The notes under the pieces are model-generated. The model worked only from the letters and a program-made list of their open reading frames with translations. It searched no databases and was not told where the DNA came from. Made by a program: the position numbers and the translations under genes. Of a stretch of 64,000 nucleotides of DNA, positions 2,190 through 11,253 are shown one piece after another. The DNA lies in NCBI RefSeq assembly GCF_903181435.1, contig NZ_CAEUHO010000004.1, positions 1,178,001 through 1,242,000 on the forward strand. The letters are read 5' to 3'. Position 1 is the first letter of the stretch. Each line of letters starts with the position of its first letter. This DNA comes from Bacteroides acidifaciens (GTDB lineage Bacteria > Bacteroidota > Bacteroidia > Bacteroidales > Bacteroidaceae).

Positions 2190-2963
2190 TTATTTAATCT
2201 TCTCCCGAATCTTCGTCAGATACTTTTTCATCCCTTCCGCGTCCTTATTCTCGATGATTTCGAGAAGGTTTTTCAGCTCGGTACGGATATTGGCCACTTG
2301 TCCCGGAGTACGTGGATTGAACAGGATTTCCTGAAGCAGGTAGTCGTCCTCACTCAGCAGACCTTTGGCGATAGCCATATGTTTCTTGAACGTAGTTCCC
2401 GGAGCTTCCTGATGTTTCATTACGGCAGCGAATACGAAAGTCGAGACGAATGGGATGGAGAGTGAGTAGGCCACTGTCTCGTCGTGTTCGTCAAACGTAT
2501 ATTCGAAGATATTCAGTCTCAGCGTCTGATAGAGGTCTTTGAAGAATATCTTTCCCAAATGGTCGCCTTCACTGATGATGATTGCATTTTCGCTGCTCAG
2601 GTTGCTGAGACTGGCGAAAGTAGGGCCAAACATCGGGTGGCTGGAAACATAACGGAAGCCACTTTCTTCATAGAACTTCTTCAGTCCTGTTTTTACAGAG
2701 GCAATGTCACTAATGATACAGTCTTTGGGCAGTACGGGCAATACTTTGCGGAAAGCATCCAACGTGTACTTTACTGTAACGGCATTGATAACCAGTTCCG
2801 GTTCGAATTCCTTAATCTCCTCTAATGTAGTGAAACGATACGTGTTGTAGACAAAACGCAATTGGTGCGGGTTGACGTCATACACGGCCGTCTCATGTTG
2901 AAAGCTCAAAATATCAGTAAAGAAGGAGCCCATTTTTCCGGCTCCAAGGATTAATATTCTCAT
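2190..2963 (-). CDS. tyrA: Prephenate dehydrogenase
   Basis: Converts prephenate to 4-hydroxyphenylpyruvate using NAD(P), the committed step to tyrosine, in the cytoplasm. The 257-residue protein begins with a Rossmann nucleotide-binding motif (GAGKMG, residues 7-12). It contains SSHPMFGPT near residue 109, equivalent to the HPMFGP substrate-binding motif of TyrA enzymes. There is no fused chorismate mutase, because that activity is supplied by the neighbouring DAHP synthase fusion. It is the last gene of the operon, 38 bases after the DAHP synthase gene, and is followed by a strong terminator. The dehydrogenase family is clear; the cofactor preference cannot be read here. Confidence 0.92.
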   Translation of the reverse strand: MRILILGAGKMGSFFTDILSFQHETAVYDVNPHQLRFVYNTYRFTTLEEIKEFEPELVINAVTVKYTLDAFRKVLPVLPKDCIISDIASVKTGLKKFYEESGFRYVSSHPMFGPTFASLSNLSSENAIIISEGDHLGKIFFKDLYQTLRLNIFEYTFDEHDETVAYSLSIPFVSTFVFAAVMKHQEAPGTTFKKHMAIAKGLLSEDDYLLQEILFNPRTPGQVANIRTELKNLLEIIENKDAEGMKKYLTKIREKIK

Positions 2964-3001: not shown

Positions 3002-4063
3002 CTACTTATTGATAATTTCCATCTGCTGACGAACAGATTCTTCGTGGATAGCTTCGAAGATTTTCTTCATAAACTCTGCATCCATACCACATTGCTCTCC
3101 CTGCATTCCGCGTTTCTCGAGAATTTCATTGTAGCGTCCGGCTTGTAGTATAGTGATGTTGTGCTCTTTCTTGAATGTTCCGATTTCGCGGGCGACACGC
3201 ATTCTCTTGGCAAGTTCTTGGATGATGTTGTCGTCACATTCGTCAATCTGTTTACGCAACAGGCTCAGGCTTTCTGTAGATTGAGTTTCGGTACGGATAA
3301 CCAGCAAATTGAGGATATAGTCGAGTACATCGGGAGTAACCTGTTGCGAAGCATCGCTCCAAGCACAATCCGGGTTGCAGTGGCTTTCTACAATCAGACC
3401 GTCGAAGTTCAAGTCCATTGCTTGCTGGCAAAGCGGAGCTACCAGTTCACGTTTGCCACCGATATGGCTCGGGTCACAGAAAATAGGCAGTTCGGGGATA
3501 CGGCGGCGTAGTTCGATAGGAATATGCCATTGAGGAAGATTACGGTAAATCTTCTTATCGTAGCTGCTGAAACCGCGGTGGATAGCACCCAATCGTTTCA
3601 AGCCTGCGTTGTTGATACGTTCCAAAGCTCCAATCCATAGTTCAAGATCCGGATTAACAGGATTCTTAACCAATACAGGGATGTCAACACCTTTCAGTGC
3701 GTCAGCTATTTCCTGTACGGCGAAAGGATTGGCTGTGGTACGTGCACCTACCCAAAGAATATCAATTCCGGCCTTCAGACATTCGTAAACGTGCTTGGCT
3801 GTTGCCACTTCGGTAGAAACATACATTCCCGTTTCTTTCTTCACCTCTTTCAGCCAGGCAAGACCCTCTACGCCGACTCCTTCGAAACCACCCGGTTTGG
3901 TACGCGGTTTCCAGATTCCTGCGCGGAATATCTTTTGTCCTTTAGCTGCCAATTGCTTGGCTGTATCCATCACTTGTTCTTCAGTCTCTGCACTACACGG
4001 GCCGGCAATGACAATCGGTCTTTTAGCTTCAATGCCCGGTAATAAAATTGATTCGAGTTCCAT
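3002..4063 (-). CDS. Bifunctional DAHP synthase / chorismate mutase (type II)
   Basis: The N-terminal part (about residues 1-255) is a DAHP synthase of the short KDO8P-synthase-like type. IAGPCSAE near residue 20 and KPRTKPGG near residue 52 are its phosphate- and metal-site signatures. It catalyses the first step of the shikimate pathway from PEP and erythrose 4-phosphate. The C-terminal part (about 262-350) is an AroQ-type all-helical chorismate mutase, with LRKQIDECDDNI and the following basic helix typical of that fold. In such fusions the mutase domain often also acts as the sensor for feedback inhibition. At 353 residues the length fits the family. It lies in the middle of the phe/tyr operon and supplies both the entry step and the chorismate-to-prephenate step. 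Confidence 0.93.
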   Translation of the reverse strand: MELESILLPGIEAKRPIVIAGPCSAETEEQVMDTAKQLAAKGQKIFRAGIWKPRTKPGGFEGVGVEGLAWLKEVKKETGMYVSTEVATAKHVYECLKAGIDILWVGARTTANPFAVQEIADALKGVDIPVLVKNPVNPDLELWIGALERINNAGLKRLGAIHRGFSSYDKKIYRNLPQWHIPIELRRRIPELPIFCDPSHIGGKRELVAPLCQQAMDLNFDGLIVESHCNPDCAWSDASQQVTPDVLDYILNLLVIRTETQSTESLSLLRKQIDECDDNIIQELAKRMRVAREIGTFKKEHNITILQAGRYNEILEKRGMQGEQCGMDAEFMKKIFEAIHEESVRQQMEIINK

Positions 4064-4156: not shown

Positions 4157-5335
4157 TCAGAGCCTTTTGATTCTTTCCAGTGCTTCTGCTAGTTTTGCAT
4201 CCTTGCAACAGAGGGAGATACGGATATATCTCGCTCCGTTACTGCCGAAAATAAATCCCGGAGTGATGAACACTCTTGCTTCATGCAGTACTTTTTCCGT
4301 CAGTTCCTCTACATCCTTGCAGGATGCGGGAATTTTCCCCCAAAGGAACATTCCTACTTGCTTTTCGTCGTAGGTGCATCCCAATGTTCTCATAATCTCA
4401 CCAGCGAGGTGACGACGGTTGCGGTAGTTTTCGTTATTGCCTTCATACCAGTCTGCTTCTGCTTCCAGAGCTGTTGCGGCTGCCAGTTGCATGGCACGGA
4501 ACATTCCGCTGTCGATGTTGCTTTTTACTTTCAGTATCCATTGTACAAATTCAGCGTTCGAAGCTAACATTCCGATACGCCAGCCCGGCATATTGTGGCT
4601 CTTGCTCATGGAATTGAATTCGATGCAACATTCTTTGGCTCCCGGCACACTCAGAATACTGATCGGCTTTTCGTTCAGGATAAAGCTGTACGGATTATCA
4701 TTCACAATCACAATATTCTTCCGGCGGGCAAAGTTAACGAGACGTTCATACAGTTCGGGAGTTGCGTTTGCGCCTGTCGGCATATTCGGATAGTTCGTCC
4801 ACATCAATTTCACGCGGCTTAAATCCATATTCTCCAGTGCTTCAAAGTCGGGCATCCAGCCGTCTTCCTCTTTCAAATCATAATTGATGACTTCCGCACC
4901 GAGTATCTTGCTCAAGGAAGTATAAGTAGGGTACCCCGGATTCGGAACCAATACCTGTTCGCCCGGATTGACAAAAGCCAGTGTGACATGAAGAATACCC
5001 TCTTTCGAGCCAATCAACGGCTGTATCTCCGTATTCGGATTCAGTTCCACTCCGTACCAGCGTTGATACCAGGCAGCGAAACCTTTGCGGAGTTCGGGGA
5101 TACCCACATACGGCTGATAACCGTGTCCGTTTGGGTCGTGGGCATTGTTGCACAATGTTTCGATGGTCTTTTCCGAAGGCGGCATATCGGGACTGCCGAT
5201 ACCCAGACTGATAACGTCTTTTCCTTCCGCATTCATCTGTGCTACCTCTTTCAGCTTCTTTGAGAAGTAGTATTCGCTTACACTTGCCAGTCTGTGGGCA
5301 GGAGCGATTTTATACGTTTGATTTTCCTTCTGCAT
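4157..5335 (-). CDS. PLP-dependent aminotransferase class I/II, probably aromatic
   Basis: A 392-residue fold-type I aminotransferase. The Schiff-base lysine is Lys245 in the motif SMSKSHNMPGWR. NYPNMPTG (about 181-188) and VNDNPYS (about 211-217) supply the pyridoxal-phosphate contacts. The family overlaps aspartate, LL-diaminopimelate and aromatic aminotransferases. Its place between pheA and the DAHP synthase gene points to the final transamination of phenylpyruvate and 4-hydroxyphenylpyruvate to Phe and Tyr, which is an inference from context. Its start codon lies inside the 3' end of pheA (26-base overlap), so translation of the two is probably coupled. Confidence 0.88.
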   Translation of the reverse strand: MQKENQTYKIAPAHRLASVSEYYFSKKLKEVAQMNAEGKDVISLGIGSPDMPPSEKTIETLCNNAHDPNGHGYQPYVGIPELRKGFAAWYQRWYGVELNPNTEIQPLIGSKEGILHVTLAFVNPGEQVLVPNPGYPTYTSLSKILGAEVINYDLKEEDGWMPDFEALENMDLSRVKLMWTNYPNMPTGANATPELYERLVNFARRKNIVIVNDNPYSFILNEKPISILSVPGAKECCIEFNSMSKSHNMPGWRIGMLASNAEFVQWILKVKSNIDSGMFRAMQLAAATALEAEADWYEGNNENYRNRRHLAGEIMRTLGCTYDEKQVGMFLWGKIPASCKDVEELTEKVLHEARVFITPGFIFGSNGARYIRISLCCKDAKLAEALERIKRL

Positions 5336-6158
5336 ATTCGCCTAATAATTTAAGTTCTTTGGTTAATGGAGTGATTGCTGCAATGGATTGCTTATATCTC
5401 AGATAATCGTTGAAAGCTACGTCTACGTAAAACTGGTATTCCCATTCACGTCCGATAATCGGCAGCGATTGTATCTTGGTCAGGTTGATATTATAAAAAG
5501 ACAGGATAGACAATACTTGTGACAGACTGCCTTCCGTATGCGGTAGAGTGAATACCATACTCGCCTTGTTGGTTGCGTTGGCATGATGCTGGCGAAGCTC
5601 GTCCACCTGCCAAGGGTCTGCAACGACTAGAAAACGGGTGAAGTTATGCTTATTTGTTTCGATGCCTTCTTGCAGGACTTTCATTCCATAGCGTTCGGCA
5701 GCCGCTTTGGAGCAGATAGCGGCGTGTCCTTTCAGATTTCCGTTCTTGATAGCTTCTGCGCTGCGTGCCGTGTCTTCACCTTCCACCACTTTCAGTTGCG
5801 GATGCTGGTTCAGGAAATCACGGCACTGCATCAAAGCGATAGGGTGGGAGTTGACTTCCGTCAGGTCTTCCCAACTTTCATCGGGCAGGCAGACGAAGCT
5901 GTGCGAGATACGCAGTTTGTATTCACCGATAATCTGCGTGCCGCTTTGTCTCAGCAACTCATTGTTGTGCAGCAAGCTGCCTGCAATCGTATTCTCGATG
6001 GCTAGCATTCCGATAACCTGGCTGTCCTTACGTATCGAAGTAAACACGTCTTCGAAGCTGGCACAACAGATTAACTCTATTTCTTCTCCCTCGAAGTACT
6101 TGTGTGCGGCGATATCATGATATGAGCCGAGTGTTCCTTGAATTGCTATCTTTTTCAT
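5310..6158 (-). CDS. pheA: Prephenate dehydratase
   Basis: Converts prephenate to phenylpyruvate, the committed step to phenylalanine. The catalytic domain carries the TRF motif at residues 174-176 (NFTRFLVVADP). A C-terminal ACT domain (about 199-275, with TEGSLSQVLSILSFYNINL) is the usual phenylalanine-sensing module. I chose the ATG at 6158 because the protein then begins MKKIAIQGTLGSYHD, as family members do. The upstream in-frame ATG at 6197 lies within the terminator hairpin. There is no chorismate mutase domain. It is the first gene of the operon and stands directly behind the predicted attenuator. Confidence 0.95.
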   Translation of the reverse strand: MKKIAIQGTLGSYHDIAAHKYFEGEEIELICCASFEDVFTSIRKDSQVIGMLAIENTIAGSLLHNNELLRQSGTQIIGEYKLRISHSFVCLPDESWEDLTEVNSHPIALMQCRDFLNQHPQLKVVEGEDTARSAEAIKNGNLKGHAAICSKAAAERYGMKVLQEGIETNKHNFTRFLVVADPWQVDELRQHHANATNKASMVFTLPHTEGSLSQVLSILSFYNINLTKIQSLPIIGREWEYQFYVDVAFNDYLRYKQSIAAITPLTKELKLLGEYAEGKSNV

Positions 6159-6177: not shown

Positions 6178-6211
6178 AAAAAAAATCCCGCGTCCATATT
6201 GGAGCGGGATT
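6178..6211 (-). terminator. Attenuator terminator hairpin ahead of pheA
   Basis: On the minus strand an 8-bp GC-rich stem (6204-6211 with 6184-6191) continues into a second 4-bp stem (6200-6203 with 6193-6196), with one bulged base at 6192. A run of eight T follows. It ends about 20 bases before the pheA start, inside the leader transcript, which is where an attenuator would sit. Confidence 0.88.
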
Positions 6212-6299
6212 CATATGATTGATTTCTCTATTCAGTCCTTAAGCATCACTGTCACTTGATACATACAAACTCCCGCTCTACTTTGTTGCTAAAGTAAAA
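6184..6299 (-). promoter_or_regulatory. Competing leader RNA structures (anti-terminator) of the phe/tyr operon
   Basis: Three mutually exclusive pairings can be drawn on the minus-strand RNA. In 1:2, bases 6299-6291 (Phe-Tyr-Phe codons 14-16 of the leader frame) pair with 6284-6276 over nine positions, two of them G-U. In 2:3, the anti-terminator, the octamer at 6278-6271 (leader codons 21-23) pairs perfectly with 6209-6202, the 5' arm of the terminator. In 3:4 the terminator itself forms. A ribosome stalled on the Phe/Tyr codons would cover strand 1 and free strand 2 to block the terminator. The pairings are seen in the sequence; the mechanism is inferred from classical amino-acid attenuators. 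Confidence 0.8.
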
Positions 6300-6338
6300 G
6301 TAAAAAAAGAAGTAATATGCATAAGTAAATGATCTCAT
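6252..6338 (-). CDS. Leader peptide of the phe/tyr operon (28 aa, Phe/Tyr-rich)
   Basis: A 28-codon frame from the ATG at 6338 to the TGA at 6254-6252. Between residues 4 and 16, ten of thirteen codons are Phe or Tyr; the stretch YAYYFFFYFYF covers residues 6-16. In all there are seven Phe and five Tyr codons. Such a peptide has no likely function beyond measuring charged tRNA-Phe and tRNA-Tyr during translation. It begins about 40 bases after the predicted -7 box and ends 94 bases before pheA. Codons 21-23 form one strand of the anti-terminator. It is too short for automatic gene calling and is probably unannotated. Confidence 0.85.
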   Translation of the reverse strand: MRSFTYAYYFFFYFYFSNKVEREFVCIK

Positions 6339-6378
6339 ACGAGTCTTTGTTTTTTGCTTTGGTTTTTAATTCTGGGGA

Positions 6379-6408
6379 CAAAAGTAATACTTTTCTGTTA
6401 AACGCAAA
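6379..6408 (-). promoter_or_regulatory. Predicted promoter of the phe/tyr operon
   Basis: Minus strand: TTTG (6405-6408), an 18-base spacer, then TACTTTTG (6379-6386), a close match to the Bacteroides vegetative consensus. It lies about 40 bases ahead of the leader peptide and 220 ahead of pheA, leaving a long untranslated leader. Confidence 0.75.
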
Positions 6409-6460: not shown

Positions 6461-7423
6461 TTAGAAGATACCCGGCAGTGCTTCCGTTTTCGCTCCAAGG
6501 TTCTTGAATTCTCCGTTCAGCCCGGCCTCTTCTTTCGGATTCAGTTCCAGTGACTTCTTCATGTCTTCCACGGAGCCGTCTTTATCTCCATTCAACAGTT
6601 TGGCACGTCCGCGCTCCTTGTAGGCTTCCGCGAAATTAGGATTCAGTTCGATAGCCTCATCAAACAGGGCGATGGCTTCCGTCAGTTTCTTTTGGTTGAT
6701 ATAAAGTTGGCCCAGATAAAGATATGCCTGTTCGTTGAAAGGGTTTATTTCCGTAACAAGCTGGTAGTCCGCTTCCGCTTCTTCGGCCTGTCCGTTCGCT
6801 TCTTTCACTTTTCCACGCAGGAGTATGGCAGTTTCTTCTTCCGGGTTTTGGGCAAGTACGGCGTCTATGTCTTCCATCATTTCGTTGTACTGTCTCAGCT
6901 TTAGGAGAGCTTCTGCACGCAGCAGGCGGGCTTCGATAAAATCATCCTTCAATGTGATGGCTTTCGTGAGATGGGCGATGGTCATCAGGTCGTCATTCTG
7001 TCCCTGACGGGCTTTTCCCAACAGATAATGTGCTACAGCATTTCCTTCTTCGATGGCAATCGCCTTATTGGCAGCCTCTTCCATCGCTTGATAATCTTCC
7101 AGGACAAAGCATACATTTGCCAATGTCAGGAAAGTGTTGGTGATGTGCGGTTCCATTGCAGCCATTTTCTCCAACAGTTCGCGTGCTTTTTCCGTGTCTC
7201 CCATTTGGATGTAGAGTTGGCTGAGATATCCCATTGTTTCGAACTCTTCCTCGATGGCAAGAGCTTCAGTGAAACATTTTACGGCATAATCCGGACGTCC
7301 CATGCGTTGTGCACGCAGACCGTCATATTTGAAAATCTCGAATCTTTTCTGGTCGTTTTTTTGCTTTTCGCTTTCCGGAGTTTCAGATTTTCCGGAGAAG
7401 AAAGATTTAAAAAAGTTCGGCAT
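6461..7423 (-). CDS. Tetratricopeptide repeat protein
   Basis: A 320-residue protein made almost entirely of TPR-type helical hairpins (about residues 33-305), with recurring patterns such as AVKCFTEALAIE, AYLYLGQLYINQKKLTEAIA and AYKERGRAKLLNGD. TPR arrays act as protein-protein scaffolds; no catalytic domain is visible. There is no signal peptide, and the charged N-terminus (KSETPESEKQKNDQKR) suggests a cytoplasmic protein. It follows recQ by 38 bases on the same strand, so recJ, recQ and this gene may share a transcript. The partner is unknown. The fold is certain, the function is not. Confidence 0.85.
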   Translation of the reverse strand: MPNFFKSFFSGKSETPESEKQKNDQKRFEIFKYDGLRAQRMGRPDYAVKCFTEALAIEEEFETMGYLSQLYIQMGDTEKARELLEKMAAMEPHITNTFLTLANVCFVLEDYQAMEEAANKAIAIEEGNAVAHYLLGKARQGQNDDLMTIAHLTKAITLKDDFIEARLLRAEALLKLRQYNEMMEDIDAVLAQNPEEETAILLRGKVKEANGQAEEAEADYQLVTEINPFNEQAYLYLGQLYINQKKLTEAIALFDEAIELNPNFAEAYKERGRAKLLNGDKDGSVEDMKKSLELNPKEEAGLNGEFKNLGAKTEALPGIF

Positions 7424-11077: not shown

Positions 11078-11253
11078 TTTATATATTGTTTTTTCTTTTT
11101 CTGTTCTCAAGGGTTGCGAAAGGCACTTCTTCCCAACGAGGGGTAAAAGTACGAAAAAAACCGGAAGTGGAAGTAGATATGACGAAAATATTTCATGGAC
11201 AGTGGAAAACCGGAAGTTTGATATGGGGTATCTTTTAGTTTTTATAGCTGATT

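Follow-up and report, generated by a model that had tools for sequence, protein, structure and literature searches.

A predicted phenylalanine- and tyrosine-sensing transcription attenuator upstream of the pheA operon in Bacteroides acidifaciens and its relatives

The pheA operon of Bacteroides acidifaciens is very probably controlled by a classical four-segment ribosome-mediated transcription attenuator that senses Phe and Tyr. This reading comes from the analysis of a 64,000-nucleotide stretch of the genome (contig NZ_CAEUHO010000004.1, positions 1,178,001 to 1,242,000; here called the window) and of related genomes, and it is sequence and comparison that establish the parts of the attenuator, their conservation, their spacing and their covariation. 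The features of the locus are as follows, each with the basis of its assignment.

6405..6408, minus strand: promoter upstream element TTTG (sequence read)
6379..6386, minus strand: promoter -7 element TACTTTTG, of the form TAnnTTTG (sequence read)
6252..6338, minus strand: leader peptide ORF of 28 aa, MRSFTYAYYFFFYFYFSNKVEREFVCIK, ATG at 6338 and stop at 6252 (sequence read)
6291..6329, minus strand: sensing codons 4-16, with 11 Phe/Tyr codons, ending in FYFYF (sequence read)
6291..6299, minus strand: segment 1 (codons 14-16), 5' side of the predicted 1:2 hairpin (fold; helix counted on a 40-sequence alignment)
6276..6284, minus strand: 3' side of the predicted 1:2 hairpin (codons 19-21), which shares the first 3 nt of the octamer (fold)
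6263..6278, minus strand: segment 2, predicted antiterminator 5' strand, made up of the octamer GAGCGGGA at 6278-6271, a bulged G at 6270 and TTTGTAT at 6269-6263 (fold)
6202..6216, minus strand: segment 3, predicted antiterminator 3' strand, which includes the terminator 5' arm (fold)
6183..6212, minus strand: segments 3:4, predicted intrinsic terminator hairpin, -17.8 kcal/mol (fold)
6178..6185, minus strand: terminator T run, 8 T (sequence read)
5310..6158, minus strand: pheA, prephenate dehydratase, 282 aa from the ATG at 6158 (NCBIfam NF008865)
4157..5335, minus strand: class I/II aminotransferase, second gene (model matches, scores below cut-offs)
3002..4063, minus strand: DAHP synthase fused to chorismate mutase, third gene (model matches, scores below cut-offs)
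2190..2963, minus strand: tyrA-like prephenate dehydrogenase, fourth gene (model matches, scores below cut-offs)

A TPR-protein gene on the minus strand has its stop at 6461, and about 280 nt separate this stop from the end of the T run at 6178. Behind the terminator the minus-strand gene order is pheA, aminotransferase, DAHP synthase/chorismate mutase and tyrA, so the enzymes of the operon cover the entry to the aromatic pathway and its Phe and Tyr branches. The pheA product scored 193 bits against NF008865, below the cut-off of 219. The aminotransferase and the DAHP synthase/chorismate mutase are 80% and 79% identical, respectively, to the genes behind the leader at a locus of another genome (L430), which is discussed below. 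The promoter proposed for 6379-6408 was confirmed by reading the sequence, which consists of TTTG, 18 nt and TACTTTTG; we take the TTTG to be an upstream element of the -33 type and the whole to fit the Bacteroides promoter form TTTG...TAnnTTTG.

The frame and the coordinates of the 28-codon leader given in the preliminary description stand, and its count of ten Phe/Tyr codons among codons 4-16 is corrected to 11. This richness in Phe and Tyr is far beyond chance: the best 12-codon stretch of the leader holds 10 such codons, whereas the maximum was 7 when the same 250 nt were shuffled 2000 times with dinucleotides preserved, and none of the shuffles reached 8 in 12. Among the 350-nt regions upstream of the ORFs of at least 150 codons in the window, 54 of 56 scored no more than 5 Phe/Tyr per 12 codons, and the two exceptions were the pheA leader (10) and the region upstream of recJ (8). 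The latter holds a short Phe/Tyr-rich frame on the minus strand, MKYFRHIYFHFRFFSYFYPSLGRSAFRNP, with its ATG near 11196; it was taken as a chance occurrence, since no hairpin with a T run could be seen there by eye.

An intrinsic terminator had been placed directly 5' of pheA, and folding bears this out, with the hairpin at 6212-6183 running into the T run at 6185-6178 shortly before the pheA ATG. The bulge in this hairpin is probably why a simple terminator scan of the window missed it. The octamer GAGCGGGA is, as had been noticed, the exact reverse complement of TCCCGCTC (6209-6202) in the terminator 5' arm, and the complementarity is longer than the octamer, since 6278-6263 can pair with 6202-6216 in 15 pairs with one bulged G. 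The match of the region past the run to the terminator arm has p = 0.005, which is the floor of 200 shuffles, and for the antiterminator state, which spans 82 nt, the folding energy is -22.4 kcal/mol (z -3.1). The need for the 15-pair antiterminator may also be why the EFVC codons past the octamer are kept in the genus. The smaller hairpin described between codons 14-16 and codons 19-21 likewise folds, at -5.0 kcal/mol; this 1:2 stem is unremarkable in the window leader (identical to the L001 leader), where 32% of synonymous permutations are as stable.

From this layout we infer the transcription start, the coupling of translation to transcription, the stalling, the read-through and the response to either amino acid. 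The RNA would start about 35 nt 5' of the leader ATG, and a ribosome would translate the leader behind the RNA polymerase. When Phe-tRNA or Tyr-tRNA is short, the ribosome would stall in FYFYF and cover segment 1, leaving segment 2 free because this segment begins 12 nt past the last aromatic codon; segments 2 and 3 would then pair, the terminator would be blocked, and the operon would be read. When Phe and Tyr are both plentiful, the ribosome would pass segment 2 to the stop codon, the 1:2 hairpin would re-form after release, the 3:4 hairpin would form, and transcription would end near 6178. Without any translation of the leader, the 1:2 stem and the terminator would form together. The octamer lies about 16 nt upstream when the ribosome reaches the stop, that is, at the edge of ribosome cover, so that masking it would fall to the extended segment 2 or to the 1:2 stem.

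To follow the element in relatives, we looked for PheA at four taxonomic levels and found matches in 56 of 60 genomes of the genus, 99 of 121 of the family, 61 of 149 of the order and 172 of 198 of the phylum. The nearest genome, G001, has 44% of sampled 31-letter words in common with the window, and its PheA is identical. From the 172 matched genomes of the phylum search, G001, 41 of 44 other loci of the same class and 23 further loci were taken; three same-class loci with weak PheA matches and about a hundred loci of other classes stand outside the range counts. The window and 230 loci were oriented, and dropping four with less than 200 nt upstream left 227. A leader with at least 6 Phe/Tyr per 12 codons was present in 212/227 pheA upstream regions versus 20/1135 shuffles, and a leader followed in order by a terminator in 202/227, so that 25 loci failed the combined test and 15 the leader test. 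Of these 15 leaderless loci, four (L054, L097, L146, and L186) keep an apparent leader frame that lacks an ATG start, and upstream of nine there is a different open frame of 70 codons or more, L097 belonging to both groups. In named genomes, whose loci overlap the main sample and are hence not independent of it, 78 of 80 loci offered 200 nt or more of upstream sequence, and the leader occurred at 70 of these 78; the named genomes include Bacteroides xylanisolvens, Bacteroides fragilis, Phocaeicola vulgatus, Paraprevotella xylaniphila, Xylanibacter ruminicola, and a Tannerella.

Outside the order, the leader was found in 24/26 and 13/15 loci of the same class and in 1/20 loci of other classes of the phylum. 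It was present at all three of the other-class loci with the best-scoring PheA (L202, L216, and L219), which is a biased pick. Among the loci examined, then, most of those in the class have the element and few of those beyond it do. The leader, the terminator and the antiterminator are kept in Bacteroidales and at most of the other same-class loci examined; loss of the leader frame or of the pairing in relatives would have spoken against the attenuator.

A covariance model of the leader matched 76 of 101 family genomes once each, and 72 of the 76 matches lie within 600 nt of pheA. Of the other four, that in G225 is at a contig end in a genome where a PheA match was absent, and that in G273 is weak and falls on a Tyr-run leader 5' of a symporter gene. 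In G258 and G277, pheA stands elsewhere and is leaderless (L154 and L153, respectively), and the match precedes the genes for the aminotransferase and the DAHP synthase/chorismate mutase (L430 and L431); in these two genomes it is the rest of the operon, not pheA, that kept the leader. The terminator of L430 and L431 has a poor T run and may therefore be decaying.

The spacing of the parts is also conserved. At 182 of the 202 loci with leader and terminator, a stretch complementary to the terminator 5' arm follows the run and is significant at p < 0.05 (200 shuffles each), and at 20 loci no significant match was found. The antiterminator starts 9-14 nt past the last aromatic codon at 157 of the 182 significant loci, most commonly 12 nt past it (80 loci). 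Downstream of the codon in its A site a ribosome covers roughly 9-10 nt, and a ribosome at the last aromatic codon would therefore just uncover the antiterminator. In two loci (L034 and L035), the significant match lies more than 160 nt away and is probably spurious; here a Phe/Tyr leader stands about 310 nt 5' of pheA, T runs lie in the interval, and the terminator that was detected is close to pheA, which is possibly a second switch in tandem.

The arms of the terminator and antiterminator change together, as the preliminary description had led one to expect. When arms were re-paired among genomes, the observed score outside the family (N = 71) was 18.44 versus 13.11 ± 0.32 (z 16.7), and z was 7.5 within the family (N = 76) and 5.0 within the genus (N = 55); these z-scores are inflated by the kinship of the genomes, the outside-family set consisting of an order part with mostly one or two genomes per family and a class part with several from some families. 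Very different arms still match, for example GAGGCTTT/AAAGCCTC in L210 and AAGGTGAGGC/GCCTCACCTT in L198. The antiterminator state was more stable than its shuffles, with a median z of -3.71 over 198 loci. On a 40-sequence alignment within the family, in which the structure was one we had named ourselves, the antiterminator showed too little variation for a good test: 4 of its 7 pairs were invariant and further pair types did not exceed those in shuffles. On the same alignment the terminator and the short 1:2 helices covary, with 23 cells in which both sides had changed and 0 of 500 shuffles as high. RNAalifold recovered the terminator and a 5-pair hairpin from 40 aligned sequences; the long-range antiterminator was absent from this consensus, because the two states are mutually exclusive.

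The hairpin could in principle merely end transcription of the TPR gene upstream, or the leader RNA could act chiefly as a small RNA, with no attenuation of pheA. The simple scan found no other minus-strand terminator from 6461 to pheA, which would suit such a role of the hairpin, and it is the same scan that missed the hairpin itself. However, a promoter-like element lies between the two genes, and its TAnnTTTG recurs within 80 nt 5' of the leader ATG in 175/201 loci; as a control, seven windows farther upstream at the same loci carry the motif, the total of control windows not being given. Moreover, the covariation of the antiterminator and its spacing from the run would serve nothing in a plain terminator. 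We therefore consider this explanation highly improbable. The locus combines a leader rich in codons of the end products, an intrinsic terminator, a covarying antiterminator and a 1:2 hairpin (unremarkable in the window's own leader), which are sequence features of a leader-peptide attenuator, and the classical layout proposed in the preliminary description is thus upheld, as a mechanism, by comparative evidence.

The leader peptide is very similar within the genus, as might be expected if nascent-peptide arrest, or a leader peptide with a secreted or trans-acting function, took the place of codon-specific stalling. However, the RNA past the run is conserved independently of the peptide. At 111 loci the motif AGCGGGA occurs no more than 40 nt from the run; one frame of the ORF accounts for 93 of these loci, the remaining frames for 4 and 6, and in 8 the motif lies past the stop. 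Being kept in all three frames or past the stop, it points to selection on the RNA and not on the peptide. Some leaders stop directly after the run (e.g., L047 and L050), and the exchange of Phe, Tyr, and Trp within the run argues against a fixed arrest motif. A role of the peptide itself thus has very little probability in our judgment. Of the distinct leaders, 191 had enough spread for scoring, and in 184 of these the 1:2 region exceeded in stability the average of its synonymous-codon permutations.

As for the amino acids to which the attenuator responds, the runs of the 202 leaders contain 1111 Phe and 807 Tyr codons in total, and FYFYF closes the run in 92. Both amino acids occur in the run in 197/202 leaders and among its last five codons in 193/202, which supports the earlier proposal of a single leader for Phe and Tyr. 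Since the two alternate, a lack of either should stall the ribosome within one or two codons of the best place. It is conceivable that the attenuator responds to Phe only, as in enterobacterial pheA, and that Tyr codons are present only because TAC/TAT suits the RNA pairing. The Tyr codon of segment 1 does sit in the 1:2 hairpin, so the RNA constraint alone could keep some Tyr, but the presence of both amino acids at the end of nearly all runs, the replacement of Phe by Tyr and of Tyr by Phe between the leaders of relatives, and the presence of tyrA in the operon make a response to Phe alone unlikely. Besides Phe and Tyr, Trp occurs within the run in 0/55 leaders of the genus, 4/76 of the family, 12/45 of outside-family Bacteroidales, and 12/26 of the class and phylum sets. 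Whether the element is an old class-wide sensor of total aromatic aminoacyl-tRNA, which stands upstream of the genes for entry into aromatic synthesis and reads Phe and Tyr in Bacteroidales and Trp as well in many lineages outside the family, seems to us evenly balanced.

In E. coli, pheA is preceded by a leader peptide with Phe codons and an antiterminator/terminator switch, with the prephenate dehydratase gene behind. The Bacteroides element resembles the corresponding family Phe_leader (RF01859) in these three respects and differs from it in that Tyr alternates with Phe and that segment 2 lies inside the leader ORF; the operon, unlike E. coli pheA, also holds the DAHP synthase/chorismate mutase gene and tyrA. 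Against RF01859 the leader strand scored 15.1 bits and the other strand 21.8, compared with a gathering score of 55. At the gathering threshold, Rfam reported nothing in the whole window except one tRNA elsewhere, and at a permissive threshold only matches far below the gathering scores, Phe_leader among them. Other enterobacterial leaders likewise read several amino acids through one peptide, the ilvGMEDA leader reading Ile, Val, and Leu and the thr leader Thr and Ile, and we know of no such leader there for Phe plus Tyr.

Within the same phylum, the same logic is found in Bacteroid-trp (RF01692, 'Bacteroidete tryptophan peptide leader RNA'), which differs from the pheA leader in having Trp codons and a trp gene behind. 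RF01692 scored above its cut-off in 16/31 relatives, and all 15 loci read had a leader in which two or three Trp codons stand side by side, mostly as YWWWRP. In one of these loci (L311), a hairpin with a T run is followed by a PALP-family gene, which presumably resembles trpB. RF01692 had no match at gathering in the window or in the pheA loci L001, L032, L198, and L210.

Vitreschak et al. reportedly listed candidate attenuators in Bacteroidetes/Chlorobi in 2004. We found no description of a Phe/Tyr leader in Bacteroidales in the literature searched, and the older survey may hold an earlier prediction. Conserved structured 5' elements have been reported 5' of pheA and hisG in Flavobacteriaceae, including Flavobacterium psychrophilum, in a section of PMC9723704 (2021) that speaks of 'strong clues' for leader-peptide attenuation of amino-acid operons; that section gives neither the leader sequence nor the sensed amino acids of the pheA element and does not deal with Bacteroidales. 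A passage of PMC7366714 notes that short ORFs in long 5' UTRs of Bacteroides thetaiotaomicron recall leader peptides. According to a 2010 survey (PMC2965389), its authors knew of no leader-peptide attenuation shown outside Proteobacteria and Actinobacteria before their own Firmicutes cases. The view that the element was undescribed therefore holds, within the literature searched, for Bacteroidales, and not for its kind, which is known in the phylum from RF01692 and from the pheA and hisG elements in that section of PMC9723704. What appears to be new is the Bacteroidales element, its range, its reading of two amino acids and its covariation; the kind of mechanism was already known.

Other candidate leaders were observed in the relatives. 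His-rich leaders occur 5' of hisG (L326-L345; e.g., MKYTATHHHHHFPNE in L341), about 290-330 nt 5' of the HisG match, with at least 4 His in 13/20 loci and HHH in one more. Ile/Leu/Val-rich leaders occur 5' of ilvD (e.g., MLHTSLNLAVLHIIRVVVIPSRA in L391), with at least 9 I/L/V per 12 codons in 19/21 loci, a count that covers L381-L401, leaves out L402-L404, and is uncontrolled for chance. Neither the L341 nor the L391 leader had an Rfam match at gathering. At 4/30 loci (L434, L435, L442, and L443), a leader with a Tyr run (e.g., MNINHTVNKYYYYYYRTTNVGL) and a terminator stand 5' of a sodium:solute symporter gene, in genomes where the PheA match is absent or weak; the symporter is perhaps a tyrosine transporter under Tyr attenuation.

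The likeness of the His, Ile/Leu/Val, and Trp leaders suggests that leader-peptide attenuation may be a main mode of amino-acid control in the phylum. Translation in Bacteroidota starts largely without Shine-Dalgarno pairing, and if total aromatic aminoacyl-tRNA is sensed as considered above, tight coupling of transcription and translation must work there. Attenuation needs a ribosome close behind the RNA polymerase, so the element would make coupling in Bacteroidota directly testable. If the attenuator works as proposed, a simple RNA rule would govern the control of Phe and Tyr synthesis in a dominant gut genus and in many relatives of that genus; the element would also provide a ready reporter of amino-acid limitation in the gut.
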